Part shown: one piece after another, positions 1 to 40,159 of the stretch | Numbering within the stretch: position 1 is the first letter of the stretch | Layout: every line of letters starts with the position of its first letter | DNA from: Saccoglossus kowalevskii | Taxonomy: Eukaryota > Hemichordata > Enteropneusta > Harrimaniidae | NCBI RefSeq assembly: GCF_000003605.2 | Contig: NW_003114461.1 | Span: 625,709-672,247, forward strand | Direction of reading: 5' to 3' | Length of the DNA: 46,539 nt | Translations under genes and position numbers: made by a program | Notes under the pieces: generated by a model | Database searches by the model: none | Told to the model about the DNA's origin: nothing | Seen by the model: only the letters and a program-made list of their open reading frames with translations

Positions 1-3000
1 TAACGTTAAAAAATAATTAAAATAAATAATAATAATAATTATAGTAAATAATTAAAATAAATGATAATTATATTAAAAAAAAAATTAAAAAAATTAAGCC
101 AACCAGGATCTTATTTTAATCAGATTGTGTTGCTGGTGGATTAAAGACTCGTGTCCGTGTTGTATTTGACATACATATGCGTCAACGTGCAGCTTAGGTT
201 TATATTTTCATTGCCAACATTGGTCGCACGTCTTATAGAATTAAAACAAAACATACTATTACCAAATATGTTATATGTGTGTTTTTGTGTCATACATATG
301 TACTGTATAAACACATATTTGCATATGCGAATCTATAATAACCACTTTGATTTGTCACGAAGCGTGCTTTAAAAAGTTGATTTGTGCAACCAACACGTGA
401 ACCACTCTTACGATACAGTAAATGTTTATTGTGAAACAATCCCCCGATATAAATACACATAGAAGTAGTGATAGTAAATGAATTGTGTGCGAAGCATGTT
501 GATCTCACTTTTACATTTTTAAGATCTCCTCTGCCCCCCCTTTTTTTGTTCAGCTTGGTAGGTTTATGTTATTTAATTAAAAAGTATGCACGAATGGAGC
601 AATTTATTTATACGGCATTTAAAATCTTTAAGTCCGTCTACAACCATATAGTAGAATGCTTTGCATGGTTGATGCACATATTACAGTGACATTCATAATA
701 TTAGATGGTATAACGTCACCAACTCTTAGAATATTGTTGATTACGACTTTCGATTATGTAAACTACTATAATACATCAATCATGTAATATATTACATATT
801 TGTGCCTTTTATTTGTCTTGAATTATGACTGAAAGAAGCTTGATGGAATTACAAACTATCTAGTGTGGTCGACAACTCATGTATGAACAATAACTTTAAT
901 AAAGATTTGTCTGCATAAAAACAAAAGAATTTCACAATGTCGAAAACGGAAAGTCTTTATCGTAATGTTGCTGGTACATTAAAAAGTCATGAATAAAATA
1001 CTGAAAATTTAACGAAATGTCAAACCTATTAATATATTGTTGATTATGATAACAAATGACTGTAACTGCTACTTTATACAGAAGGTCATAGAATTAACGA
1101 CAGTCGTCCCTGTGTGAATTTCTAATTTTCTTTGGTATTAAATTTCTGCTTTCACATTTATTTGACATTATGCTGTACCTATTTTGTCTTCATCTTACAG
1201 GCTTCAGTTGTTAGTGAAAGAACAGTATAACTACTGAACTAATTTGTTCTATTTTTGTTCATGATCCATTTGCGTAACATCTACATTTTTCATTACTCTA
1301 AATTGCATTTTTGTTCACTGGCGAAGTTTCGTCTAAAATGAACACATTGAATAACTATCTTTTGTTTCATGTTTTACTTGGGTAGGGGGAGGGTGAATAT
1401 ACAGAGAACATAATCGGAATCCGTTTTTCTTTATTAAATGGATAGCAACAGCTGTTCCATAGCTTAGTAAGGGGGTTCAGTTGGCTGAAGTTATAATAGT
1501 GTATTAGGCGAGAATGTTGATATCCTCAGATTTCTGTAATCTTGTCCTACGGCGTGTTTAGTACAGCAATATCGTATGATCATTCGTGCCTGTAACAATG
1601 AAAATAAGTTCGTGTGTTTGAGAAAAATACCATGTCGGCGTTTTGTTCGATACATCGGCTATATTAGTTATCAACGTGTATATAATAGAACGACGATTGC
1701 AAATGAGTTTCCTGTGACTCCTATGTTCTTTTGGCCGTATTACAAAGTGTAAGAGACATTCATTTTGATGAAATAAGTCTGAATTTGTGAATATATTGAA
1801 TATAACTGTTACGCCAAGTTGAAAGCGAATTAGTATTTATGTCAAATATGAATTATACAATCATACAATTGTTCATTTGTTTTAACTTAATACATTGAAT
1901 CCATGGGATGGATTACAATTCCCACAATTGCCGATATTTCGCCGATTAGTGAAATCATTGTAAGGGAGGGCAATGCATTGTTTTGTGGCATACACAATGG
2001 ACCCTCCGTAGTGTTTCTGATTCTTTGAAGCTTACAAGTCGTCGTAATGTTTCCAAATAACGTCAGCGTGACATTTTCTACAGCTTTAATGGGTGGTTAC
2101 TTTTATGATTGTAGTGTGTGCTACTGAAATACACAATATGTCAGTTTTAAATTTTAATAAATCATATATATGATATAATAATAATAATATGATATAAACG
2201 TTGATTGGGACATTTAATAAGCATAATTAAGAGACCTGGTCACTTCCACATTTCATTGAATATATAATTATTCTTCACAAACTATCTTGAATTGGCTTCG
2301 TTTTTTTTCTGATCACCGCCACAATTTCCGTAGCTATACAGTATACAATATACACACGTTTTAAAACGTTAATTAACGTTTTAAAACTTTTTTAATTCGC
2401 TAAATGTCAACACGTTCTTTTTAACAGTGCTGAACTTTCACAGGCATTTCTTTCAATTTGTGATTTGACAACGTGTCAACACTTGCTAACATTTGTAATC
2501 TGAAATCACATGGAATGATCACACGGCATTGGTTCTTGTGCATATGTATTGCAAAACTTAATTGGGTACGGACCATTACTGTGCCGAGTCTAAGAAAAGA
2601 GTCTGGTAAAACGGAATCTTTCTTTAGATATAACAAAGTAATGTTTGTAAAAACATGACGTTTCAAAGCCTTGTTTCTATAATAATCAAATAAATAGATC
2701 GAGGTGACTTATACAACGGTACATATTTTGGGCAAGTAGGAAATATATATTTTATCTATCAATTGAAAGCCATTTTATCACTATAATTAATAACTTAATA
2801 CAATTGGCTAATTTGCACAATCTACATAACTTGCAAATCATTAACATTTAACTAGTTAGTTAACTAGTAGAAGATTGCCACAACCGTTCAAAATAAGAAA
2901 ACAACAGAAAATTTGGTACATAGAATTTTAATTTTTCTTTAAAATGAAATGAGGATGCACGTGCCCTGGGCATGTTCACACAGGTTTATTTAATCGTCTT

Positions 3001-6000
3001 TCAAAATCACAGAGTATGTCATAATTTACGGAACTGTTCATTGTATTTTTTCAAAAACAATGATAAACACGATTCTAAAGAAAATTGATAATTGTTTATA
3101 AATATGAAGTTTTTGAAACATATGAATGATATCTTTAACTAATATCTCCAAATACTGTTGTCTGCTTCCTTGAATAATAGTAATTGAATAATTAGTTGTA
3201 GTCTAGTGTGACTTTCAATTATTGTTCAAAGTGTAAAATTTGTCATACATACATTTTTCATTTTTATTTCAAAAATAGATTTGAAGTAAATAAAAGTGGT
3301 TGATGCTATTTATTATGGTTTTTACTGTTTTATTTCCTAAAGTTGAAAAATGTTACATAATTTGAGGTGGATGGATAATTCACTTTATTCTTATCAGGAG
3401 TTTGTAGGAGGTTAGTAAGATGTGTTTGTACGTTTTAGGTATCTAATCTGTTGAAAAAATATTCTGTGAATCATGTAAGCGATAATCTCACGTTTGCTGT
3501 GCATACGACTGGTAGCTACAATGCCTGTTGATTATAACTAAATACATGTCTCATACATAGAATATCGTTGTTCATATTACCTAAGCAAACTCGCACAGGG
3601 AAGACTGCCATTGAAAGGTTTACAAGGGTTTACTGCCAAAAGGATCCGTTTTTGAGCAACAGAGTCTGTAAAGCCTTTAGTATTAGAGAACACATCTTTG
3701 TTCATCATGCTTTTGCAATCGCTATTTCTGGTTGAGAAAGTTTCATGTCACACAAAATGAATGCAAACACCTCGTAGCCAGTTTATCATATGAAAAAGAA
3801 TTACGATAAAAGCCACATATACTATTATTATCTTTCATAATCTTGATTCGAAGACTTTTGAAGCGCCATGGCCGCCATGCAGTGCTATTTTTTTTATAAA
3901 CTGACAATGTATTGCATAGACACTGTATAGCAAGCATGTCACTAGGTTCAAACTAATCTGCACGTCTGGATGAATGATGTATTTGATTACTAAGGAAACC
4001 AAGTCATGAAAAATTGCAATGGAATATTATCGTAATAAATATTTGTACGAACATTATAGTGACTATATAAATTATAACATATAGAAGAACTTAAATGTAT
4101 GAGAATGAGAAAAGTGTGTTTGTTTGGATGAGCGTCTTGTGGTGGGCTCTCGCGTAGGCATTTTAAAATGATTAAGAGTCATTTTTTCCTGTCATTACTG
4201 ACAACGCTGTCACAGCGAACAAGGTTACTAACCGTAGTTTGTTTTAATATTTCTGTCTTCCCTGCCATGGACATAAGTTCGAGTGATTGGAACGCTATAC
4301 ATATATTTTTACCTGGGAGACAAATCATTACTTACATACTACCAATATATTTTTTATAATTAACGTCTAGTTCAAAATCGTTTGGTGTTTGATTAAAAGA
4401 AAGTAATTTGTAGAATATACTAGAATTTGTAACACATTAATCTGAACGATGTCATCGTGAGTGGGATTTGCTAAATCCATTTCACAAGAAAAAGATTTTA
4501 TGTTATGTATGGTATCATGTTAAGATAGTTCTGCAAGATTTCAGATGAGATAATATTTAATGAATATTATGATCAATTTTTAGATAATTATAAAAAAAAT
4601 TATGTTTTTACATATACAATGGATGTATATTTGTTGAAGTTCGCCGCACATATCTGCATTTCATTGTTTTTGTATGGTCAAAATCTATGTTTTTTATAAT
4701 ATTTACAAACCACAAGCCAGTTGCAGTTGCGCTTGTATATTTGCAATGCGTAGTATCCTGTTTAGTTAACAATGTTAGTGGTACTATATCCGCGGTCATT
4801 CTATTTTTTTTTTGACATTTAGTACAAAATCTAATATAATATAATTGTTTATAAAAATATACTATACGTGATCCGCGACCCTCAAAGAAAGCATTTCACA
4901 ATAACGTAAAACTTGACACTTGTGCATCTATTTTAGGTTTTGTGCTTTTTTTGAATATTGTCTTTCATAATTGAATTTAGAAAGCCATACCAGCAAAGAA
5001 TGGCAAAATTAATGTATTTTGTAGCCATATTTATTGCACACCGGAAAGCTTTTAAGCTAAGTGAAATCTACACAACGAATGAATATACAAACGTTACATA
5101 TACAAAACCATTTTAAATATTAAATAAAACATCAACAAAATAAACATGTTAATACTTTGAAGTAAACAGTTGAGTTTGAGACTAGATTTTGAGAAAATTT
5201 GTTTTAAAAGGAACGATAACAAATAAGCATTTTTTTGTGACACTACCCAAATGCCTTTACCCAGACCTAATATTTTTTGAGAATTTTAAACAAAATGGGC
5301 GAATGCCCTAGTATATGCGCTATTGTATTCCATATATTAATTAAACAACACATTTTTGTTGCTACGTATAATAGAAGACCTATATTGAAAAATAATAGGC
5401 AACTGACATATTAAATCCATCAATAAGAAATGTAATAGTTGTATTAGGAATTTTAACAAGGTACAATGCTAACAAAACAATATACATGAGACAAACTACA
5501 TTTACACGCATACAGAGGTCAATGTGTACACTAACACAAGAACTCACGCGATCACGAACATTCGGCACAGCTATTGTATGATATACCGGTCAGCACTGGC
5601 AATAACTAGTAGTAATATGTCAATTTGCAAATATGATAAAGAATATATTTTCTTTCAGCGACTGCTCATTAGTAATAACAAGTACAAACAAGCACTGTTG
5701 AAACTACCTTGAGTCACGTATCTCAAACTAATGAGTATTCGGCCAGATTTGACAGTGGAACCCCTGAATCCCTGGAGAGTGCACTTTTAATTTGAGTACT
5801 CGAGCTCACACATGGCTTGTTATAATGTGTAAAAACATTCGCAAAGGCTTACCCATTCGAAGTACATAAACATCAAATTTAAAGCATGCCCTATTTGATC
5901 ACGAGATCGAAGATCAATTCATCTTTATTTTAAACACGACCGAAGACACATGTTCCCAAATATGGTTCACATATACAACCGTGCAATAAAAGTCAATAGG

Positions 6001-8650: not shown

Positions 8651-8856
8651 ATAATTTAGTTTGTCAGATGTTGATCTGCGTAATCGAAGGCATCTTAAAA
8701 CAGAACTAATCCCAACAGTATTTATGTTATAACATTAATGGAACAACGGGATAGCAGTTTGTGTAGATCTGAAGAAACCAATCGCGATGCATCTTGGGGA
8801 GTGTAAGATGCAATCGAATACATATTCTCGACAGAAAAAAAGCGTCACCCTAATAC

Positions 8857-8953
8857 ATCATTTATTTGTTCATTTATTCATTTATTCATTCATTCATTCA
8901 TTCATTCATTCATTCATTCATTCATTTATTTATTTATTTATTTATTTATTTAA
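8857..8953. repeat. (TTCA)n/(TTTA)n microsatellite
   Basis: A tetranucleotide tract of ATTC units grades into ATTT units over about 97 bases. It explains the spurious repeated Ile-His/Ser-Phe open frame on the plus strand. Confidence 0.95.
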
Positions 8954-10026
8954 GCACAGATTGACCTACGAAAACTACGGCTTCGAAAGTACGTATTGCA
9001 TTCGTTTATCGTTCAAGGCTAAAACTCCCAAAAACATGCGTTTGGCACGTACAAAGTCTGACGTAGTGTACTTGTATGTGAAACTGATCACGGTACACAT
9101 GTGGAGTATAAGAATGGACTGTCGTTAAATTGTTGTTAATTTTATTCTGCATTTTCTTGTTATTTTCAGTTAAAACCATTATCACATGTTCATCTTCAGA
9201 CTGTGAAGCAGGGCATTTAGACATGGAAGTAGCGATCTTTGCATATATAAACAAGGAAAGCTATACAAAACATGGAAGGTAATGTACACAACGGATAGTT
9301 GTACGATTAACTTATGCGTTTAATGGGGCTACATTTGTTTTAATGCACAACTCGTGTACCAGCACATATTGTTATTGTCAGGTAAACACCCGCTGAAATT
9401 GCTCTTAAGTTCAATGAACTATTTGCCCTTACATTAGTTACATTGTTTTCACTCTGCCTCATTACCATGGCGATATGGACGAGACGGCTGCACCATTTAA
9501 CGTTTTGTTTATATTTTCAGCCATATATGCGTGTTCCTTATCAGCATATAACACACATTAGTAATGCCCTCATCAAAACTGTTATCTGACACCAATCCAA
9601 TAACTGTCAATTATATCGTATGTGATTTGCATTATGATTTTGTCTCTCAATAAACATGTTCGTCGGTGATTTGTGTTGTCGCGGGCGTAGATTGAACGCT
9701 ACGATTGCCACAGGCGCATGCAGATTTCGTGTAAACAATGTATTCTGCACGCCTTTGGTACGTGATGTGACCCACATTGCTTCATGAGAGGCGTGGTGGC
9801 CTTCGCGCTTCAACCTTTAATATCAACGCTAGTATACTAGCATACTAGTTATTTTTGGCTCGCCACGATCTCTAAGCTTGTTGAGACACGAGTTTTTGAA
9901 TATATTTAAGTAAGTCAATTACTGTTAAAAAATCATGAATTCGTCATATCTATGAGGAGTACTACAAAACCTTTGTGATTCCTAATGCTACTTGTAGTTC
10001 AATTTGAGCAACAGCAGACCCTCCCA
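8954..10026. other. Intergenic stretch, nothing recognised
   Basis: Short overlapping open frames without recognisable motifs. A small palindromic cluster of CTAGTATACTAG type lies near 9830-9848. No splice-bounded coding sequence is apparent. Confidence 0.5.
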
Positions 10027-13396: not shown

Positions 13397-13609
13397 TTAC
13401 AGTCCAATCCAATTAAGCCACGACGAACTGGTCTTTGACACCTGGTCGAGGTTCAAACGTTTGTCTCTGTCGTCAGCGCGTTCCAGATCATAGTGACCAG
13501 ATGCACCCATCCTATAGATGTTCTCGCCGCCTTTATCCCATTTCACTTTGACCCAGTGTCCTTTGTTGGGTTTCGATAATACAGTGCCTTTACAGCCTGC
13601 TCCGCCATC
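13397..13609 (-). CDS. TRIM-MIB gene exon 3 (second half of MIB/HERC2 domain and stop)
   Basis: A 213 nt terminal exon (70 codons plus TAA) follows acceptor TTTTACACAG. It opens with DGGAGCKGTVLS and continues with VKVKWDKGGENIYRMG and GHYDLERAD, the remaining MIB/HERC2 core. A 26-residue polar tail then ends in SSSWLNWIGL. The exon 2/exon 3 junction falls inside the conserved QDGG motif, which confirms that the two exons belong together. Confidence 0.87.
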   Translation of the reverse strand, partial: DGGAGCKGTVLSKPNKGHWVKVKWDKGGENIYRMGASGHYDLERADDRDKRLNLDQVSKTSSSWLNWIGL

Positions 13610-16600
13610 CTGTGTAAAACAAATTATAAATGACAATGCAAGAATAAACAGACACACCATTGTTTTTAGTCTCGTTGATTTACACTCTTAATTTTTGTTA
13701 TTTAATAACTCACAATGACAATTTAATATTTGCGAATCGATCAGTAACTCAACTGAACGGGTATTTGAGAGATATGTTTTGTCACCTGATTCGATCTTTG
13801 AATTCATCCAAAAGTGATGTACTGACAAATTTGTCTACTAGTATTATATTATCGGCGTTAGACAAGTATTGAGTTTCGAACGTAGTGGCGTACTAGTTGA
13901 ACGCGTCATCCAACAAAATAGTCAGTGGCATTGAATGTTTCCGCGCAAAATCGGCAACGCCGCCTTGTCCCGGCCAACCCGGGGTTCTGATAGACTAATA
14001 ATCGCTCATTGTTGTCGAAAACGTCAGGAAAACGGGCAATGAACTTGTTGTAACACTTCACATCAATTTCTAACGATCTTTCTAAACATGTTACACACAA
14101 ATCGCAACACGTCAGTCATAGTTTGGACAGCAGGAACATTAGAAAACACGGCACATATAAAGTACGTAATATATCAAAAAGAACGTAACTATCGTGATTT
14201 TACTTTAATGTTGATATTCGAAACTTGTTTTATTCGTTATAAACCACCATCGACTGTGTTTAAAACATCTGTGATCACTACAACATGACTCGATGATAGC
14301 AAACGAAACTTAAAGTGGGGTGCATTTCCTCTTATAATATGTTTGTGGGTTTTGTTTATATTTCCCTCTTCATATACGAATCAACAAAATCAGACAAATA
14401 CACTGTTTAATTTGTGACATTCAACCGCATAATGAAATCGTGGAGATGTGATATTTACATTTATATCTTTACATCTAGTGAAGCCTACTTGTGCTTTTTT
14501 GCGGATTTCACGGTCTCTATTAAAAACATAATTTTAGCTCCATGCGTTCAGTACAACGCCGCTAAGATTGTAGTTAGTTTGAATGTTTGATTTGTGTTCA
14601 AAACACCGTCTAAATTATTGATACTTTTGACAACACTGGAACCACGAGCATCGTTTGAAATTTCCCCGGTCTAAGCGCCCACGCTTTGGGTTGTTAGAAC
14701 ATGCACGTTTGGTTGTTCGGAAACACTGAATTGCTTCATTGGTCGAAGTGTGCAACTTACTTGTACGCCACTGCGTTCGAAAATCAATTCCTGGCTAGTG
14801 TCGGTAGTATTCAAATTATGATTTCAATATCAATCAAATCTTGATCAAAACATTACAATATGAAATAGGACAATTGTTCTATTGACAATCTTTGCCTTAC
14901 GTACGGTGTCGACTTTGCGTTGTAATTAATACCCAGGACTAAATCCATCATTATCAGGGCACAGTGTCATTACCTGGTTCTGCCAGATCCAATCTGAACC
15001 ACGCTCCACTCTGTCACCTTCCGTCATTTCAGCCGCCAATAATGGTCCACTCATTGTCTGGAAATGTAAATTTGATAATTCACAATTAATTGAACAAACA
15101 CTTGGTAACGGCTGCACTGTTATAAAGGACGACGTAAATACATGAAATATATTTATGCATGTTACGCTCCGTATAAATTACGACCTATAAGCTCCGATGT
15201 TATGGGGTTCATGTATTATTAGACTAAACCGTCCGTCGTTGGATATCACTATAGTTAGAAATTGACACGTAAACAACATTTTCGGCAAAATTGTCATTCG
15301 TGTAACTCCTACAACAAGAGATGCTTTAATATAGAACTCTTTTCCCTGTTATATACGCATATACGCACATAAATGGATGCACATATATTTACTTCGCAGA
15401 TATGAATTATTCATCTATTTAAATAATTTTGATCAAAGTGGGATAATTTTGAAGAGAAATGTGTAAAGTATAATTTTTAAATTTTATACTGTGACGTAAA
15501 ATACGGGAGTGGCCTTTGTGAGGCTAATCCGTATTCAGGAGCTGGGAGCTTATCTTCAATACTGGTCTAATAATAGACGTCTCTGGCAGCGTGCTTATCT
15601 TATAGGTCTTCTATCTTAAGCTCATCCGTTGTCACGGTGAGGGGATCGTTTGGTGAAAGTATACCACCACAACTGAGGCAGTGCAGGATAGAAAATATAC
15701 CGGTAACAAATACTATAAATCAAAACAACGCAATATACAAGATTTCCTTCACTTTAATACATAAATAGTACGGGGGTGGGGGGGGGGGGGCTAGTCACTG
15801 AAACCAGCAAGAAATAGGGATAAACTGTAAACAAATAAAATCAGAGACTTGATCGATGCTGCAGGGAACATTCCACTACAATGTACAATGTTGCGTTCTT
15901 TCGTTTATGGCACACTGTCAAAGCAGCTGTACTACAATTTAAACTCGTGCTCTGTGTCCAGGGAGTATCGGCAACTGCACTGCTATATGCTGCTACTGGT
16001 AGCACTAGTACAACGGGAGTATTGCATTCCAGGCAGTGAGCTTCTAGGGGTTCCTGTTGATCAGCAGGGATTACTGCACAGTACGTCTGCATATGTACCT
16101 CAGTATAGGGTACAGCTCAATGAAGTCGGGTATCAGCTTCACAGTATATTACAGGGTCAAGTCAGGTCACCTTCCTGTCTAAAGTTTGTTTACATGTTTC
16201 AACTTAAATACTACAACTAAATTATGTCCATGCAAACAATAAAATGTTTTCAACGACATTTATTCTCAAAATAGCGGACAAATCAGTGTATAGAGGATGC
16301 GATATTTACTATATAGGGGCCGCCATCTTGAATGACGCATAAAACTAAATAAGAGACAAGTTGTGAAACTCGTTTTTCAGATTCCTACAAATCAGGACAA
16401 AAATACCAATCTTGCAGAAAAATACGGTCCGTTGGGGTTATATTAAGCCTAATGATAACGAAATTCGGCCGAATTCGTCGTTTTTGTGTGGAAAAATCCC
16501 TTGCATACAAACAATAGTAGGCTTGTAACGTTTATTTAATAAACTGAATTTATATTGTGAAAAGTGGAAAATGGTAGTAAACACAGAGAAGACAAATGTT

Positions 16601-18424
16601 ATAGCTTTTAAAAATGGCGGTCATCTATCGAACTCTGAGAAGTGGTACTATGGGGGGCAGCCCGTAGAAGTGATGCCATCTTATATTACACCCGGGTAGC
16701 AATTGTATATACGTTGCTAAGATACGGGTCAAAATGTTATCTTGCATTACTTGTCCCTAAAGCAATCCAATGTGCGATATAATACCGTGCTTTGTTGGGT
16801 ACGACAACACTTCCTATATCATATGATATGGGGTTTTTTTCGACTAAATTGTTATCACCGATTTTCAGATGATCATGTTAGAAATTGCAATATATTAGAC
16901 AGACATCATAATTTGAAAAACAATAAGTTTTTTTGTTAATTACGCGGTTATGCAAATATGTAGAGTAGCTATAATCCAAGGAAATGCGAGATATATAATA
17001 TTCACAGCGGATATGACTTTATTTTATAAATGGTGTTCCACTGACACGTGTACTGCGAGATTTAAACACGTTACAGTATACATTTTCAATTTAAAGCGGG
17101 GGGAGTCGTCATCTACGCATGCGTCAGGCGGCCGTAGTGTGTCTTTGTTTACAAACAAGTGTCTACCCATGAGCCTTTGCGCTCTTAGCGTGTGTTGTTA
17201 TCATCACTTTGAACTCGATTCCCGCGCGTGCGCAGGTGACAACCTTCCCGCTTTAAATTCACCCCGCTTTCCCATTGTTTTGTGACATCACATACTTACC
17301 CAAACAACTCTTCCGATGTCCGCGTACTTAATCACTGGCACCATGTTATAATTCTCTAATTTCATTTTGCCTGTAGTAGGAAGTTTACTGATGCTTTCCT
17401 TCGTCACGCTGTTTAACTTTCCACATACTTGCTTCTCCATTAACAGTACTTCGGTGTTGTTGCCATAGGAGAGCACCTTTCCCGAATAGTCACACGTGCT
17501 ACTAGCTCTATCGATTTGTTCTTCCATTTCCTTCTTGTACTTGTCAATAACGATACGCTTTACGGCGGCGCGTTCGTCAACTTCACGTTTCAGATTTTCA
17601 GCGTGAAGTTCTATTTGCTCTGTGAGAAGATGTATTAAATTTTTCGCCCTCTCGTCTATGTCCTTTTTTGCTTTGACGCGACATGACTCAAGCTCTTGAC
17701 CAGTCTGTTCTGCTCGATTCAACGAATACTGGCATTGAGAAATCCTCTCTTCTGCAACTGAAATCTGGGAAAGAATCGCGTCTTTTGTTGTTTTGGCGGC
17801 GTTATCGATGTCAATATTCTTGTGCCCTGTGTGTTCTTGAAGAGAACATAGTATGCAAACGGGTACTTTGCAAGTAGAACAAAACAGCTTCAATAATTCC
17901 GTCTTATGTTTCCGACACAGGGACGTGCTTTTTGATCTTGACTCTACCCAATTCCTCTTCGATAATAGATCGTCGCCGGATAGAACTTGGTGCTCCTTCG
18001 TGCTTTTCATTTTGGTGTGGTGATTGGAGCACTCTCGGCAAAGAAACTCGCTGCATTGTAAGCAGTAAGACAAAGTTAGGCTGGTACCTTCGCTCTCGCA
18101 GCTGAAACAGTTGACTTTTGACTCCCCTCTTGTTTTTCGGTAAGATTCGAACACTTTACAAATCTCGGAGACGAAGAAGTTATTCTTGAGACCATCTACG
18201 CCACTCTCGGGTAGTCTGAACGACATTCGACACACAGGGCACGATGGATTTGCTTTGAATATCGGGTTCTTGGCTGCATAATCTTTCAAACAGCGAGCAC
18301 AAAATGAATGAAGACAGTCTAGTATTTTCGGATTGGTTATCCGCTCCTGGCAAATTGAACATGTTAGGAAATCCTCGTCAATTTTGTCAAGAACCGCAGC
18401 ACGATCTTCGTTACTGGTGGCCAT
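13397..18424 (-). CDS. TRIM-type RING/B-box E3 ligase with C-terminal MIB/HERC2 domain (three exons)
   Basis: Predicted 473-residue protein from exons 18424-17300, 15057-14974 and 13609-13397, all junctions in phase 0. Residues 22-65 form a C3HC4 RING (Cys22, 25, 37, His39, Cys42, 45, 62, 65), which recruits E2~ubiquitin in known TRIMs. Residues 106-145 form B-box 1, and 170-201 form a B-box 2 with spacing C-x2-H-x8-C-x2-C-x4-C-x2-C-x4-H-x2-H. About 210-345 is charged and heptad-like, the expected coiled coil. Residues 389-447 match the MIB/HERC2 consensus (GDRVERGSDWIW, then QDGGAGCKGTV, VKVKWD, YRMGASGHYDL), the ligand-binding module known from Mind bomb and HERC2. Neither NHL nor B30.2 follows. 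The start at MATSNEDR was preferred because the RING follows at usual TRIM distance; the frame stays open 42 codons further upstream. Function as a cytosolic E3 ligase is inferred; the substrate is unknown. Confidence 0.85.
13610..14973 (-). other. Intron 2 of the TRIM-MIB gene
   Basis: A 1364 nt intron with GT..AG ends on the minus strand. It contains a Cys-rich minus-strand frame at 14142-13906 (see that entry) and otherwise AT-rich sequence with no motif. Confidence 0.75.
13906..14142 (-). other. Cys-rich open frame inside intron 2, unrecognised
   Basis: An open stretch of about 78 codons has paired cysteines near its beginning (CCDLCVTCL) and again near its end (RRRCRFCAET), with an FPDVFDNNERLL segment between. 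The Cys pairs suggest a small zinc-binding unit. However, no clear acceptor/donor pair brackets it, and the known exons 2 and 3 join in phase without it. It may be an unused or alternative exon, a scrap of another gene, or chance. Confidence 0.2.
14974..15057 (-). CDS. TRIM-MIB gene exon 2 (first half of MIB/HERC2 domain)
   Basis: An 84 nt exon, 28 codons, phase 0 at both ends, bounded by acceptor TTTCCAG and donor GTAATG. It encodes residues 376-403 and ends in GDRVERGSDWIWQNQ, which matches the start of the MIB/HERC2 consensus (G-x-R-V-x-R-G-x-D-W-x-W). Because it is symmetric, skipping it would preserve the frame but remove half of the domain. Confidence 0.85.
16515..16705 (+). mobile_element. 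LINE reverse-transcriptase fragment
   Basis: Plus-strand translation gives LNLYCEKWKMVVNTEKTNVI followed by AFKNGGHLSNSEKWYYGGQ. This matches the segment just after the FADD box in many non-LTR reverse transcriptases (L-x2-Y-C-x-K-W-x-x-x-V-N-x-x-K-T-x-V-x-x-F, then GG...E-x-W-x-Y). There is one in-frame stop upstream of it (VGL*RLFNKL) and the frame closes shortly after. It lies antisense within TRIM intron 1. The clade cannot be fixed from so short a piece. Confidence 0.65.
17091..17256 (+). mobile_element. TTAA-flanked MITE, copy B
   Basis: 166 bp, TTAA at both ends, terminal repeats AGCGGGGGGAGTCGTC at left and the complement of ACAACCTTCCCGCT at right. Same orientation as copy A, with clear matching of the internal CAAACAAGYGTCTACCCAYG segment. 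It sits in TRIM intron 1, its edge 43 bp from the exon 1 splice donor. Confidence 0.9.
17300..18424 (-). CDS. TRIM-MIB gene exon 1 (RING, B-box 1, B-box 2, coiled coil)
   Basis: A single 1125 nt exon encodes residues 1-375. This agrees with TRIM genes in which the whole tripartite motif sits on one large exon. It ends in ..GRVVW directly before a strong donor, G|GTAAGT on the minus strand. Reading past the donor gives only four more codons to a stop, so the frame was probably reported as a free-standing B-box protein in naive calls. The frame open from 18550 adds MLCIETHVDVSW..., which looks like 5' UTR translation, not conserved TRIM sequence. Confidence 0.9.
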
Positions 18425-18519
18425 TTTACCGTCCTGGTTCAACGCACTACCATAAGCATACGTGTCAGGTAATATGACCTTTGTACTGGCGTATTGTTGC
18501 ATGTAAATTACGTACCAGC

Positions 18520-18626: not shown

Positions 18627-19725
18627 GTATTTTGTTTTTGTTTTTTTTAATAAAATTTTATTTTCTAATAATAATTACAATTGTTCACATAACAGTAAAA
18701 ACGTCACAGACACGACATACAAAACATTACAAAAATAGTTTAGTACAGGGGATGATCATTCCAACAAGGGTGCCAACGCAACCCATTTTAAAACGTACTT
18801 TGTTTCGTTCAAGACATTTTTTCAATACATTTCTTTTCTTTGACAGTCTTTATAAAATAATCAAGAGAATGCGTTACATTTGTAAAGCGGCATATATATA
18901 TAAAAAAAACATATTTACCTATTAAAATAAAATGTTTTAATAGTGTACATTTTTTGGGAATCCAGAGAGAATACGTTTACAGCTTAGAAAAATATTATCA
19001 CTTCCCGGTATAGCCCCCCCAATAGTTTTGAAATATTTTCCAAAACGAAATTGTGGTTGTACATTCCCAGAAGATATGTTCAATTGTTTCTTTTTGTTTC
19101 CATTATTTTCAACAATTGTCCAATCGGATTTTATTTTGAAAAAGATAATTGTTGGTTGCCAAAATTCGATGCAATATTTTGAACTGAAAGATGCGCAGTT
19201 TTTCTTTCATTTTGGCAACGCACGCCAATTTTCAGATACATTTCCAATCCATTGTATCACTCACATACACAGTTGCTTTATATTTAGATATGGATATTGG
19301 TGTTTCAAAACGTTTTTCAACTAAGAAACTAAAAATCTCTTGTTTTACCACCAACAACTGTATCATTTATTTCTTTAGTTAAATTCGTATTGATATTTCC
19401 AGCAACTAATTTTAACTTCCAATAAGCTGGAATTGCGTGCAGAATACCATTAAAAGTTACAAAATCTGTCTTAATTGTGTATTTCTCTATAAATTGTTCA
19501 TATGACATAAAATTACCATCTGTATTTAATAAATGTTGTAAGCACTTTACCCCATTATTTAGCCAGTGTAAATAACACACTGGTTTTCCCACCAATTAAA
19601 ATGTATATGTTATTCCACAGTATTTCTGATTTGACCTCATTTGAATTACAGGGTGGGATTCTAATTGTTAGTTCATTGTTGAACCTATTATGATTGCGGT
19701 GTTTATGGTTGTAAATGTAGTATGC
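18627..19725 (-). mobile_element. 5'-truncated LINE, L1/Tx1-like ORF2 C-terminal part
   Basis: The minus strand, 19690 to 18640, encodes a typical L1/Tx1-type ORF2 tail. It contains an EILWNNIYILIGGKPV piece, then WLNNGVKCLQHLL and FVTFNGILHAIPAYWK. Then comes a FQFKILHRILATNNYLF-like piece, a Cys/His segment ETIEHIFWECTTT, and a final ICRFTNVTHSLDYF. The frame is interrupted more than once. An A-rich tail (poly-T on plus) at 18627-18650 marks the 3' end. The 5' end abuts the 3' end of the neighbouring LINE at about 19725. Only the last ~1 kb remains, the usual result of incomplete reverse transcription. Confidence 0.8.
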
Positions 19726-19729
19726 AAAT

Positions 19730-20850
19730 GAATTGAATGGAATTTATTCCACCAAAAACAAAACAACATTAAATGTAGAAAATGTACAGGTAGTAAATAT
19801 ATATTCTACGAATTCTACCTAGAGTACTTCCCATTTTTGGTGTGAACTAGTCGGGTTCATAAATTTTCAAATAAAGAAAAAAAGAAAAAAATTACAAATT
19901 TTTAACTTTGCTTTAAATATGTGTCTCTTAGTGATGGTTGTAAATGCATCAGGCAATGAGTTCCAATGTTTTGTTGCAGGGTATTTAGTTTGTGTTGGTT
20001 GAGTGTAAGATTCAGTTATAATAATCATGCTACAGGCGAAGCGGGTTTGATAATGATGGGACAATGGATCCAAATAGTTGTAAATATTATGTACAAAATA
20101 TTTATTACTGAGATCAAAGACAAATAAACAGGTTTGTAACTTACAGAGTGAAAACAAAAAATCTAGGATTCTTAGTTTTTGGAAAAGAGGAGCAGCATGG
20201 GAATACGAATCATTGAAAGTGATGAGGCGTACTATTTTTTTCTGTAAGAGATATATTGGTTGCAGTAGAGTAGCATATGTATTACCCCAGATTTCCAGGC
20301 AATATGTAATGTGTGGAAAAATTAAGGAGTTGTATAAGAGAATAAGGATATGTCTAGGTACAAACTGACGTAGTTGTGAAATCAATCCCATTTTTGGTGC
20401 AATAACTTTGCAAATTTTATCAATGTGAGCTTTCCATGACATATTCTGACCAAGAGACGCCAAGGTAATTGACAACATATACGCCCTCTATCGGTGATCC
20501 GTTGATATGCAGGCTGTCCTCAGTAGTGACCGATCGTTGTGGTGTTTTAAATATCATGTAATCTGTTTTTTTCAGGATTAATAATTAGCAAGATTAATTC
20601 AGAATTAATAGTTTGTTAGCACTGTACCACGAACCCACGAAAGTCATTATTAATTTCTGAAAGATTGATTTTATTGTTTTGAATAATTTTAAATAGGTTA
20701 GTATCATCTGCAAAGAGTCCAAAATAAAAGGAATTGGTAGAATTGGCTGTATCATTAATATAGATTTAAAATAAAACTGGGCCTAGAATCGACCTATGCG
20801 GAACCCCGCAGATAATAGGTCGGGCAAAGATGAAATATTTTCAATAAATT
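19730..20850 (-). mobile_element. 5'-truncated LINE, CR1/jockey-superfamily RT C-terminal part
   Basis: The minus strand from about 20835 begins with reverse-transcriptase motifs: GVPHRSILGPVLF, IYINDTAN, then the catalytic FGLFADDTNLF. The well-preserved frame 20478-19867 (203 codons) continues with WKAHIDKICKVIAPKMG, LLYNSLIFPHITYC, WGNTY and LLQKKIVRLIT, the usual post-catalytic region of CR1/jockey-type LINEs. There are stops and at least one frame change before 20478. The 3' end carries AATAAA and TTCCATTCAATTC-like sequence at about 19745-19725. The piece lacks the endonuclease and the N-terminal part of the RT. Confidence 0.85.
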
Positions 20851-24263: not shown

Positions 24264-25936
24264 ATGGAATGGGCCTATCTCCTAAATTATTCGCCAGGAA
24301 AACGAAAGAAAATCGTATTGTTTGCTTGTATGGTTGTAATTGTTTATCAAGGTAATCAACACGTATTGTATTGTACAAAAATGTATGTGGAAAATAATAT
24401 TATCTGCTGTATATTTTATAAGTTCGCACTTTCTGGTTACGTCAGAAAATTTTGAACATCCTATTTTGCAGGCGTACATACATTGCCAAAGATGAATCGT
24501 GTTTTGCATGGACTTTCAACTATTTTAACGAATAAAAGTACGACGCGTGTCGCTACGGTACGTACTTTTGGAAGTAGTTCATTTAGTTCACATTGGAATT
24601 ATTTCACAGTTCCAATGTGGTATTATATGGAGGGGTTTTCGAAACACGTTGAGCGTCAGTGTATGTGAAAACTGTATAAAATACAAGCATGGACCATATG
24701 CCACGTTCTTGATTAACACGAATGACAAAAAAACAGTTCACAAGTGATAAATTATTTCAAATGTATCAAATTGAAAACAAAATGAGAATGCATAAATTAG
24801 GTGAATTTAATTCGGTCGATTAATTTATTTTATAATTTATTTGTAAATACAATAATGAATAATATAATAATTTCCGCATTTGATGTGATGAAAAGTTGAT
24901 TACAACGAATTTGAATTTACTAGTACTTCTAGTTATAGTAATAGTTCTATTTTGTGCCTCATAATATAGACATAGTTTGCACTAAGTGAAATATTTCTTT
25001 GTAATTTTAGCTTTTGAAATGTCCAGACATGGCACATTAAACTTTCAAAGCTACCATCTTATATGTAACATTTGAAACGTGATGAGGTATTCTACCTCAA
25101 GTTATTACATAACCAATTGTATAGCTTCTTAACTGTCGAATGTGCATTTTTGCATATTTTTTTTTTACTAGGTGCCTGTAATAGATCCTGTTGAAAGCAC
25201 ATATGACTCAAGACGAGCCAGTGAGAAAAGACTTGAGAAAAGTGCACTGGAATGTGTTAAGCACAAAATTGTGTATAATCGCACTATCTCGACTGTACTA
25301 GTATCAAATGAATACAGGGTCATTATTAATGTCATTCCTAAAGTGGGGTCAGGTACATGGAAAAGACTTATGCGTGGAATTGACCCAACTTCAGCCAATG
25401 CCAAAGGCAGACGTCGACTGAACTTTCTGAAGTCATCTGAGTATGATCAGTATGTTAGCGGGGTGTTCTTTCGAGAACCATTGGAACGTCTGGTATCGTT
25501 TTACCACTTCATAATTTCTCCACATTCAACTACCCACTTCAACCACTATCACAAATATATAAGAACAGAGAACGGGAACGGCACGACTGATAATGAACCG
25601 ACATTCAGCCAGCTTGTACAGATGATTATAGATCATGGCCAGGTACCACCTCATTCTCGGCATTGGGAACGTCAATACCTACTGTCGCGTATATGCGAGT
25701 TTAATTACACTTTTGTTGGCCACATGAATCACCTATCTCAAGACGCCCCATACTTTGTACATATTGCATTTGGGGACGCAGCCCATTATCCAGTGGTACA
25801 TGAGAAAAAAGGTGAAGACAAATTCAGGAAAACAATGTCAACTCTGTCACAAACACTGATTGATCGGCTTATAGATTATTATAGATTAGATTATGAAATA
25901 CTTGGATTCGAAATTCCAGACTTATCTAAAAAATAG
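24264..25936 (+). CDS. Carbohydrate sulfotransferase (Golgi, type II membrane), paralog 1
   Basis: Three coding exons, 24264-24351, 24472-24557 and 25172-25936, give 312 residues; junctions are phase 1 and phase 0 with GT..AG introns of 120 and 614 nt. Residues 12-29 (GKRKK then IVLFACMVVIVY) are a cytosolic basic flank plus one membrane anchor, followed by a short variable stem. The luminal domain has the PAPS 5'-phosphosulfate loop IPKVGSGTWKRLM (Pro-Lys at 114-115) and the 3'-phosphate motif REPLERLVS (159-167). It ends LDYEILGFEIPD, like the DYxLFGY tail of Sulfotransfer_2 enzymes (CHST8-14 group). It should move sulfate from PAPS onto a glycan; acceptor and carbon position cannot be read. 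Sequons NRT, NGT and NYT fit luminal glycosylation. Exon 3 is in frame from GTG immediately after the acceptor, so its Val is internal and not a start. Confidence 0.85.
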
Positions 25937-30264: not shown

Positions 30265-31614
30265 CAACTCCTTTCTCGTTTTAAAATACAATCTGAATGA
30301 GCTACGGCAAGCCGAAAAGTTCTCGATTGCGTACAGCGCCACCAGTGGCTGTTCCCGGCTCCATGCGTCAAGTCACCAATGGCAGGTATGCAACCTTCAA
30401 TAAAATCATGACCAAGTCAGTTTTAATCAGTGGTGTTTCTAATAAATGTAAGACTGTCTGTTTCTGAAATTTCTCATTTCTGGTTATAAAGATAAGGAGA
30501 TTTACGGATTATTATGCACTGTATATTATTGCACTATTTGTGCAAACTCTACGAAGCAATCGTTTGATTGCGATGGCAGAGCAGATATAGAGGGCGCACC
30601 CTTGTTTGATTTTACGGAGAAAAGGCACAGGAACGATTCAAATATTGATACATATAAGCTCTGTGTATCGGTGTAAACCAGTTTAATGTAGCAAATATAA
30701 TTCTCCCTGAAGTCAAAATCATTTAAACCATTTTACAAAGATTCACGATAAAGCATATAAAAGGTTATTTCTTGGTCAAGAGCAATAGTATCTAATTGGA
30801 TGTTAAAATAGTGAACAATGGTCAGTTTGATGTTGATGCTATGTATACTTAGACTGAGACTTCTCTGTTAAAATTTCACCTTTTAGAGTGAGCTCCGAGT
30901 GAGTTTGTTGTGTTGTATTCAAGGGCCCTTTTGGGATTAAAATCCCCGATACAAACCACAGACTAAATGAAATGTAAAACGCTGTTCGATACTAGTAGGA
31001 GGTACTAATAAATCGACATTAAACATATTTTGTTTCAAATGGCATTGTTATTTTAAATCTCCGAAGCTCCAGTCGGTTTCTGTCGGATATTAGCGATAGT
31101 ATAGTTCCAATGTTAAAGTGCATTTTACCATTGTCAAGGTGGTTTTCCAATATTTCTTAAAACTTGCTCTTAAGCATGATAAAGCTTGATATTAGACAAT
31201 AGCATAAAATCGATATTATAATAGATGCGATATCATATACCGGTAAGAATAAAAAAAGTAGGTCACTTCGCAAGCATCATGACATCAACTGCAGTGTTTG
31301 ATTACAAATTCACCATCCCTGCTATAAGGTTTATAGTTATAGATTAGTTTACTATACCTCCCATTCCAAACAGAACAAGCCATTCTATTTAATAGAAGGA
31401 GACGAGTGCGAAGATCTGAATAATGTCCAGTCGTCAATTTTATCTGAGAAGTGAGTGAGTGAGATTCTAAAACATCTGCGTTGCTTATTGCAACACTGAT
31501 ACACAGTTCTGTCAATTAAAGCATACCGTGAACAAAGTGCTACCAGACCACCGGGCATGTATGCGGATACATGATCAGTAATTTCAGTCACAGGACTCAA
31601 CTGTGAAGAAACGT
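30265..31614. other. Intergenic with one LINE scrap
   Basis: No gene recognised. Contains the LINE scrap at 30824-30879. An ATACCGGTAAG word lies near 31240. Confidence 0.45.
30824..30879 (+). mobile_element. Short LINE scrap, same element as 33262-33830
   Basis: About 56 bases (GATGCTATGTATACTTRGAC and ACTTCTCTGTTAAAATTTCAC) match 33434-33490 with only a few differences. The match starts and stops abruptly, so it is an isolated fragment. Confidence 0.7.
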
Positions 31615-32046
31615 TATTTTAAATTTAACTGCTCTTATTTTGAATTTAAATGTTTTTATTGTAAATTTAACTGCTCATATTTTAAATGTAACTGCTCGTA
31701 TTTTAAACTTTAATGTTCTTATTGTTATTTTAACTTCTCATATTTTAAATTTAACTGCTCGTATTTTAAATTTGAATATTCGTATTTTAAATTTGAATAT
31801 TCGTATTTTAAATTTAACTTCTCAAATTTTAAATTTAACTGGTCATACTTTTATATGCTCGTGTTTTAAATTTAAATGTTCTTATTTTAAATTTATCTGC
31901 TCACAATTTAAATTTAACTGTTCATATTTTAAATTTAAATACTTGTGTTTTAAAATCTAAGTTTTCATATTTTAGATTTATATACTTATTTTTTAAAATT
32001 TAAATACAAGGATTTTAAATTGTTTTAAATGTTCTTGTTTTAATGT
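31615..32046. repeat. AT-rich ~21 bp minisatellite, array 1
   Basis: About 20 imperfect units of TATTTTAAATTTAACTGCTC, with unit variants carrying GAATATTCG or AAATGTTCT. The plus-strand frame 31640-31960 (repeated ILNLT/ILNLN) is a translation artefact of this array. The same unit forms the array at 33831-34170. Confidence 0.93.
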
Positions 32047-37577: not shown

Positions 37578-40159
37578 ATGGCATTGGTTCGTTTTCGGAA
37601 GTATCTGACACCAAATCTAACGATAGTCGTCTGTTTTGTTTGTACGGCTGTAATTGTATATGAAGGTAACCATTAAGTCAGTATAAGTATAATAAGAACA
37701 CTCTGAAAAATAATAGTGAAAAATAATAATATTTGCCGAGTAGGTGAATTTAGGTATGTAATCATGTAATTGTGTACGTCAGCACATCTTCGACATCCTG
37801 TCTTTCAGGTATGGACAAATTGCCAAAAATGGAGCATGTTTTTTCGGGACCCTCGACTCGTGCAGATAAACCACATATAAAAAGCGCTGAAATGGTAAGT
37901 ACTTTTGAAATTAGTTTATGGAGTAATAGAGCTAAACATTTCCATGTTGTTAATTGTATATGTGGCCTTCACATTGATAATTTGTGTATTTGTACATATA
38001 TTATGTGCACACCTGGTTACGGATTACTAGTAATATACACGCACATGGCTAGTTAAAAGTGTCAAAAAGACAAAGCCGTAGTTTACAGACATTAACGGCT
38101 TAACGAGGATTGCTTTATCGCCACGAGTGATGCAGCGTATCCTGTGACCGTATTATGAATATACATAATACAATGATACAACGAGTAATGAGCGAAAAAG
38201 CGAACGTCAGTGCGATGCCACTTGGTTATAGTATTATTACATACTTTTTTTCCATACAGTCGGTGCCACATATTAGGGACATACCGACCGAGAAATAAGC
38301 AGTACACTGTAATCCACGACTATTTCATTGGACATGGTGTCCTTTTTTAAATATGATTCAACACTGATAAACGTGATAAAGTTTTTGGTTCATGCGATTT
38401 TCTTATCAGTCAAAACATTGCATACCGGTAGTGATCGTATTAGTCACAATTAGGTTAGGATGCATTTTCATTTTCATTGTGGACTAAAGTCTATATGAGT
38501 TATTATTGTTAAGTACAGATATTTTTTTAAATTGTGTTGATTTGTTTGTACCATGACAGCTAACATTAAATGCCAATAACTGGATGATATTTTTGCTTGT
38601 TTTCGCAGTAACAGTAAAATACAGAAGTTCGTAGTACAATTGAGTCATTTCAAATATACATTCTACATGATAAGTTGCAAAAAGTAATTTATATAAACAT
38701 TATGTCATATGCATATCATATTGATAATATTATTTACATTGAACTGAGATCACTAATATGAAAACCACCACAAATTCGAATACATAGTCAAATGTGAGCT
38801 AATGTATTAAACAATATTTAATCATAAAACCATAGTCATGTGAACGAACAATGTTTTTACGATCAACGACTATTAAGCAAGTTCTCAATATTATATTTAA
38901 TACTAAGGGACTATGTAAATTCCACAGACTCGCCATTGTAATGAAAACATGCCACGGTTGACAGTATGCCACCTAAGCCGATATGACGCGTCGCCAACGT
39001 ACACAGATTTTTTGTGACGAACTTTGTTGTGCTGATTCATTGTGCTGCATTGACGCAACACAAAATTCTATACATCGATTTAGTCATCTTGATTAAAAAA
39101 AACATCTTACTATAATTATAGAATTTGTAATTCGAAAAAATTAAATTTACATTTTATAAACAAAATTAGTCTAAAACTAAGGAAATCAAAGGCCTCAAAT
39201 TTTGAGATTGAGCCTCAATTGTCCTATACAATCACTTATATTTTTGTTTTACTTGAAGAATCAGCAGTCAACAAGTTGACTGAACTTGATTTTGCGGATT
39301 CCATTTTGACTAAGAATGCCTTATAGTCATTAGTCCTATGCGTTATAATCAGTTGTCTTCGGTTATTATCTTGTAGGTGTCTGTAATAGATCCGGTTCAC
39401 ATCACTTATGACCCCAGAAGAGCCAGTCAGAAAAGACTTGAGACAGCTGCTTTGGAATGCTCAAAACTGAACAATATTACGTATTTTAGCAAAGGTTTAA
39501 ATATACTAGTATCTCACAAGTACAAAGTTACTGTTACAAGAATTCCTAAAGCGGGGTCAACTACGTGGCAACATGTTATGCACGAAATTGATCCAGTCTC
39601 AGGCGATCCTGAAAGCAGACGACGACTGAGTTCTCTGGCGCCACCTGAGTTTGATCAGTATGTTAGAGGCGTGTTCTTCCGAGAACCACTGGAACGGCTT
39701 GTGTCGTATTACCATTACCATATTTGTCCCCCTGGACCAGTTCCAACGCTTTACTTCCACCGCTATTATAAGTATATGAGAAAGGGACACGTGAATGCCA
39801 CTATGAATAATAAACCGTACTTAACGTTTATTCAGTTTGTACAGTTGGTTCTTGATTATGATCAGATACCCTCACAATCATATCATTGGCGACATCAATA
39901 TTTATTGTCACGTATATGTGAGTTTAATTACACTTTTATTGGACACATGGATCACTTGGCTCAAGACGCCCCATACTTCATGAATTTGGCAGTTGGAGAC
40001 TCATTTCATTATCCAGAGGTACACACGACAAGAGGTGAAAGTAGATTCAGGGAAACAATATCAACCCTGTCCCAGAAATTAATTGATCAACTTATTGATC
40101 ACTATAAGCTAGATTATAAAATTCTGGGATTTGAAATTCCAAACTTTTCCAAGAAATAG
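37578..40159 (+). CDS. Carbohydrate sulfotransferase (Golgi, type II membrane), paralog 2
   Basis: Exons 37578-37665, 37809-37894 and 39377-40159 give 318 residues. Exon 1 and 2 lengths and all intron phases equal those of paralog 1; introns are 143 and 1482 nt. Residues 16-28 (IVVCFVCTAVIVY) are the membrane anchor. The catalytic exon carries the PAPS loop IPKAGSTTWQHVM (Pro-Lys at 115-116) and the 3'-phosphate motif REPLERLVS (160-168). It ends LDYKILGFEIPN. Relative to paralog 1, it has a few extra residues before the PAPS loop and an extra short PPGP-containing stretch after YYHYHI, and a different residue context at the PAPS loop. The stem exon 2 is the most diverged part. NIT, NAT and NYT sequons are present. 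Acceptor-like TTTTACTAG ends nine bases before the ATG, as in paralog 1, pointing to a 5' UTR intron. The acceptor glycan is unknown. Confidence 0.86.

Follow-up and report, generated by a model that had tools for sequence, protein, structure and literature searches.

The window analysed here, by which we mean the whole 46,539-nt stretch of Saccoglossus kowalevskii DNA, sits at the end of its contig in the assembly (572 Mb, 4830 contigs) and holds three minus-strand exons that together encode a protein of 473 residues and a stop codon, each exon being a multiple of three in length and all of them in phase 0. Exon 1 (17300..18424) encodes residues 1-375, contains the whole module of RING, B-box 1, B-box 2 and predicted coiled coil, and ends at a GTAAGT donor. 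It is followed by intron 1 (15058..17299, 2242 bp, GT-AG) and by exon 2 (14974..15057, residues 376-403), in which a MIB/HERC2 domain begins at residue 389 (position 15018). Intron 2 (13610..14973, 1364 bp, GT-AG) divides this domain between WQNQ and DGG, and exon 3 (13397..13609, residues 404-473 and the stop) carries it on to residue 448 (position 13475), leaving a tail of 25 residues. The start codon at 18424 is flanked by A at -3 and by G at +4, a stronger context than that of an in-frame upstream ATG at 18502. The coordinates, phases, GT-AG borders and 473-residue length thus agree with the original prediction, which had placed a tripartite exon in phase with two exons that complete a MIB domain. 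A pseudogene or a broken copy of this gene (hereafter TRIM-MIB) was considered and set aside, because the three joined exons contain no internal stop and the zinc ligands are intact.

Other frames of the window were also observed. Upstream of the TRIM exon and in the same orientation, frames at 18937-20487 (minus strand) resemble the C-termini of reverse transcriptases by eye; three of these frames were scanned without a Pfam match at 0.01. On the plus strand, two related Sulfotransfer_2 frames (25172-25936 and 39377-40159, with 88.2 and 87.0 bits) are probably the last exons of carbohydrate sulfotransferase paralogs, and two low-complexity frames (8739-9128, FIHSFIHS..., and 31607-31960, ILNLTARILN...) have the look of simple tandem repeats.

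The first half of the protein begins like members of the TRIM/RBCC family, an N-terminal RING with eight ligands being directly followed by the B-boxes. The RING finger, of the C3HC4 type, spans residues 22-65 (18230..18361, minus strand) and reaches 32.7 bits against a zf-C3HC4 cut-off of 21. The zf-B_box profile matches two stretches of the protein, each at E<=0.01; B-box 1 covers residues about 106-145 (17990..18109), and B-box 2, at residues 168-202 (17819..17923), is the best stretch with 39.5 bits for a cut-off of 24.1. All zinc ligands are present, 8 in the RING and 16 in the B-boxes. A coiled coil is predicted at residues about 205-345 (17390..17812), in a stretch poor in Pro and Gly. 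A weak 3.5-residue periodicity with z values of 2.6-2.8 appears in three windows within residues 197-273, but the signal is not specific, as the MIB part gave one too, and Pfam TRIM_CC gave no match to the 473-residue protein. In a sequence search of the PDB, the RING part best matches TRIM3 and then TRIM2, members of the RING-B1-B2-coiled-coil TRIMs of the NHL class, and residues 21-357, from the RING to the predicted coiled coil, match the RBCC of TIF1-beta (phmmer). NHL, filamin, B30.2 and MATH are absent among the 15 Pfam families listed for the protein at E<=10, a list in which few matches above about 0.1 survive the HMMER filters. This agrees with the expectation that the MIB domain occupies the place where other TRIMs, including those of the NHL class, carry NHL, filamin or B30.2.

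Searching the same assembly with the TRIM exon gave 77 matching rows, among which the exon itself scores 838 bits and the best non-self row 142.8 bits. Identity in that row amounts to 28 percent across residues 10-339, and the rows with 47-62 percent are confined to short RING parts. From 30 loci (TRIM-MIB and the 29 next best rows), two were dropped because their longest frame had no RING, leaving 28 aligned TRIMs. The 8 RING and 16 B-box ligands, with the eight of B-box 1 among them, are invariant in 28/28, that is, common to TRIM-MIB and the 27 others. Among these 28 TRIMs, NHL is found in 18 and filamin in 11 (Pfam, E<=0.01, among the 25 of 41 families listed). In a tree of these 28, the branch leading to TRIM-MIB measures 1.14 and groups with just two others, likewise long (L030 and L037), a grouping that may be false. 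A recent duplication of another TRIM found no support, given the 28 percent identity of the best non-self row and the long branch. With no close copies and a long single branch, the TRIM half looks, by sequence comparison, like an old member of the family that stands outside any recent TRIM expansion, and TRIM-MIB appears to be a single-copy animal gene as far as the assembly shows.

The second half of the protein carries a MIB_HERC2 domain (PF06701) at residues 389-448, which scores 64.2 bits in the spliced protein against a cut-off of 33.5 and covers positions 1-65 of the 66 in the profile, so that a chance match was dismissed. Together with the RING and B-box scores, this bears out the expectation that the 473-residue product would pass the Pfam cut-offs for all three domains. 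The exon 3 frame alone reaches 45.5 bits in the genome search (13612-13475, one intron codon included), and the rise to 64.2 bits after splicing with exon 2 indicates that the two exons complement each other. No second MIB exon was found in the window, and ZZ, ankyrin and HECT are absent among the 15 Pfam families at E<=10.

Comparison with known MIB/HERC2 domains places this one nearest to HECTD1, although not by every measure. Domain by domain, the closest match in the PDB is HECTD1 (57.8 and 57.7 bits), and the two domains of MIB1 follow with 37.3 and 33.1 bits, whereas the MIB1 chain, thanks to its two domains, leads with 67.3 bits when scores are summed over whole chains. Plain identity does not separate them, being 32/63 with human HECTD1 and 30/59 with the first MIB of human MIB1, in a comparison for which the exons of the rows from the assembly were joined by hand. 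In the assembly, a Pfam MIB search at E<=10 gave 14 exon-level rows on four contigs, in a non-exhaustive search where exons were scored singly, the 17 best candidates were scored and some stretches read N. These rows correspond to TRIM-MIB (C804), to a HECTD1-like gene (C4441) and to tandem-MIB genes, which lie on both strands of C54 and on C2349. Among the four contigs a TRIM row was found on C804 only, and none of the 17 candidates could be assigned to HERC2; both statements hold within this non-exhaustive search. When the MIB domain of TRIM-MIB itself was the query, the 4 rows from the 4 candidates scored at E<=10 were TRIM-MIB and HECTD1, and the tandem-MIB genes gave no match. The affinity to HECTD1 consequently rests on the per-domain scores and on this last search, since identity and whole-chain score do not favor it. 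Moreover, the MIB intron lies between WQNQ and DGG in TRIM-MIB and between GELHNG and W in the HECTD1-like gene, and with such different positions HECTD1 itself is not necessarily the source of the MIB exons. HECTD1 also differs in architecture, being a large ligase of the HECT type that includes SUN and ankyrin parts (PMC11947180), none of which were found in TRIM-MIB; as with HERC2, the contrast extends to the HECT domain, which is not among the families listed for TRIM-MIB, its open reading frame stopping 25 residues beyond the MIB domain. The tandem-MIB genes of the assembly, at 169-189 kb of C54 (both strands) and 228-230 kb of C2349, are perhaps Mind-bomb-like duplicates.

Mind bomb (MIB1 and MIB2) has ankyrin repeats and C-terminal RINGs. 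TRIM-MIB shares with it the condition of a RING E3 with a MIB/HERC2 domain, yet its RING is N-terminal (residues 22-65) and no ankyrin is listed. The original prediction had proposed a Mind-bomb-type ligand reader mounted on a TRIM dimer. It is partly supported: a tripartite exon does run in frame into a MIB/HERC2 domain that is complete, but the Mind-bomb type of reader finds no support. In Mind bomb, a MIB-ZZ-MIB (MZM) unit, which in MIB1 is accompanied by a REP unit, binds the N-box of the Notch ligands Jagged1 and Delta (PMC11887331). TRIM-MIB has a single MIB and no ZZ, and for this reason a Mind-bomb-type contact with the N-box would not be expected to be kept and the ligand reader was discarded as the leading reading. 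A Notch-ligand reader on a TRIM scaffold would be consistent with the common domain family, with the 30/59 identity and with the first rank of the MIB1 chain by summed score; nevertheless, taken together with the higher per-domain scores of HECTD1 and the lack of a match to the tandem-MIB genes among the 4 candidates scored with this domain, the missing MZM unit makes this reading very improbable.

Observations outside the animal genome also touch the distribution of this domain. Four bacterial MAG contigs (JANJTH010000108.1, CAJWOS010000016.1, JADLFU010000144.1 and CAUJFL010000093.1), which are the relatives among 21 pattern matches, have MIB_HERC2 above the Pfam cut-off: a Planctomycetota protein combines two of them with a caspase-like domain, a proteobacterial protein has three alongside EF-hand matches, and Myxococcota proteins that are lipoprotein-like by eye have one each. 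The domain may therefore not be confined to eukaryotes, unless these contigs are misbinned. In a collection of viral contigs, where no relative of the whole 473-residue protein was found, an AAA_5 ATPase (IMGVR_UViG_3300046786_000471, 2902-4251) has an N-terminal MIB_HERC2 of 33.7 bits for a cut-off of 33.5.

To judge whether the two halves belong to a single gene, the splice sites were ranked with a scoring matrix from general knowledge against all same-strand candidates of the window (2799 donors and 2175 acceptors). The exon 1 donor is the 11th best of the donors and that of exon 2 the 29th, and the exon 3 acceptor ranks 47th among the acceptors. The exon 2 acceptor is poor, being 350th and outside the 20 best listed for 13397-18424. 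In-phase joining was not taken as proof by itself and is weak evidence, because 29 of the 180 AG sites in 17269-13610 would likewise leave at least 28 codons open in phase 0. The case for joining rests instead on the donor ranks, on the exon 3 acceptor and on the completed MIB domain. Joining is the better reading, given that neither half is damaged, that the two are collinear and in phase, and that a strong donor closes the TRIM exon. The TRIM and MIB exons thus probably form one fused gene that would be spliced in vivo as modelled here.

Separate TRIM and MIB mRNAs are less likely, although several features of the locus would accommodate them. In the intron-retained frame a stop lies three codons beyond the exon 1 donor, at 17288, which would give a TRIM of 378 residues without a C-terminal domain, and an AATAAA at 17023, in intron 1 and 277 bases past that donor, could terminate a transcript of the TRIM part alone; downstream of exon 3, the first ATTAAA appears at 845 bases and the first AATAAA at 1421 bases. 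Moreover, exon 2 begins with ACA ATG, with A at -3, so that the MIB exons could have a start of their own at its second codon (position 15054) and encode a MIB-only protein of 97 residues. Tripartite-only TRIMs do exist, accounting for 12 of 18 in the worm (PMC2533329), and the poor exon 2 acceptor points in the same direction. In this arrangement two adjacent genes would share their orientation by chance. Against it, the AG before exon 2 keeps phase 0 with exon 1, whose own donor is among the best in the window. MIB-only proteins, moreover, are not a class known to us, which further counts against this arrangement, and we regard it as unlikely. Somewhat less likely still as a separate account, although it overlaps with the fused gene, is that one gene makes two products, a TRIM-only isoform generated by intron retention or intronic polyadenylation and a spliced TRIM-MIB in which the MIB domain would be a regulated option. 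The in-frame stop right past the donor and the AATAAA at 17023 would fit such a scheme, but at such composition, by our own estimate, about one stretch of 277 bases in four would contain an AATAAA, so the motif is not a rare one.

Based on these data, the reading we favor, with a probability of roughly 75%, is that the product of the fused gene is a RING E3 ubiquitin ligase of the TRIM type, with a HECTD1-like MIB/HERC2 domain as its C-terminal recognition module. TRIM coiled coils dimerise, with the C-terminal readers near the center and the RINGs at the ends. By analogy, the RING-B-box 1-B-box 2-coiled-coil unit supplied by exon 1 would form an antiparallel dimer, and the linker would set the two MIB domains supplied by the downstream exons near its middle, with the RINGs at the ends. 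The MIB pair would then hold a substrate via a short peptide and the RINGs would transfer ubiquitin to it. MIB domains are generally regarded as substrate binders. Hence, the most likely function would be that of an E3 that ubiquitinates some MIB-bound substrate, in line with the proposal that the MIB domain of HECTD1 'may mediate interactions with substrates' (PMC11947180).

Regarding its origin, tripartite modules are frequently encoded by a single exon (PMC2533329), and a survey of fish describes TRIMs that gained new C-terminal domains, in one case from several exons (PMC3137616). The likeliest origin of TRIM-MIB would be comparable, with a one-exon TRIM unit capturing the MIB exons. In fish TRIMs of this kind and in TRIM-Cyp (TRIM5-CypA), as in TRIM-MIB, the tripartite module has exchanged its C-terminal domain, but the domains gained there are a chromodomain and RanBD/cyclophilin A and not MIB. 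The main texts of three works on TRIMs, namely Marin 2012 on TRIM origins (PMC3503706), the fish survey (PMC3137616) and a genomic analysis (PMC2533329), contain no occurrence of either MIB or HERC2, in accordance with the suspicion that the combination is not a named TRIM class. Likewise, no description of a TRIM-MIB protein was found in the open-licence literature among the matches listed, as judged by titles and the openings of abstracts. A possible relative is the orthogroup OG314 of Regan et al. 2021 (PMC8382680), described as 'Mib-herc2, protein ubiquitination', with 234 genes and 15.1 per bivalve species versus 0.4 in other molluscs. It resembles TRIM-MIB in comprising MIB-bearing ubiquitination genes, as compared by a description that gives no domain order; of TRIM-MIB, no close copy was found in the assembly. 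OG314 may include TRIM-MIB proteins, in which case the present gene would be of a known but unnamed type.

More tentatively, and with somewhat less than even confidence, TRIM-MIB could represent an old and unnamed TRIM class with a HECTD1-like MIB reader, kept as a single copy in some invertebrate lineages. If so, the tripartite scaffold bears a recognition module that HECT ligases also use. To our knowledge, the MIB module has so far been known from Mind bomb, HERC2 and HECTD1. The C-terminal domain is what defines the classes of TRIM ligases, and many such domains select the target of ubiquitination; MIB as a TRIM reader would add a new module to this set. It would also be a further case of a one-exon TRIM unit gaining its C-terminal domain from downstream exons, and would allow MIB binding to be examined in a protein of modest size, apart from the far larger ligases.
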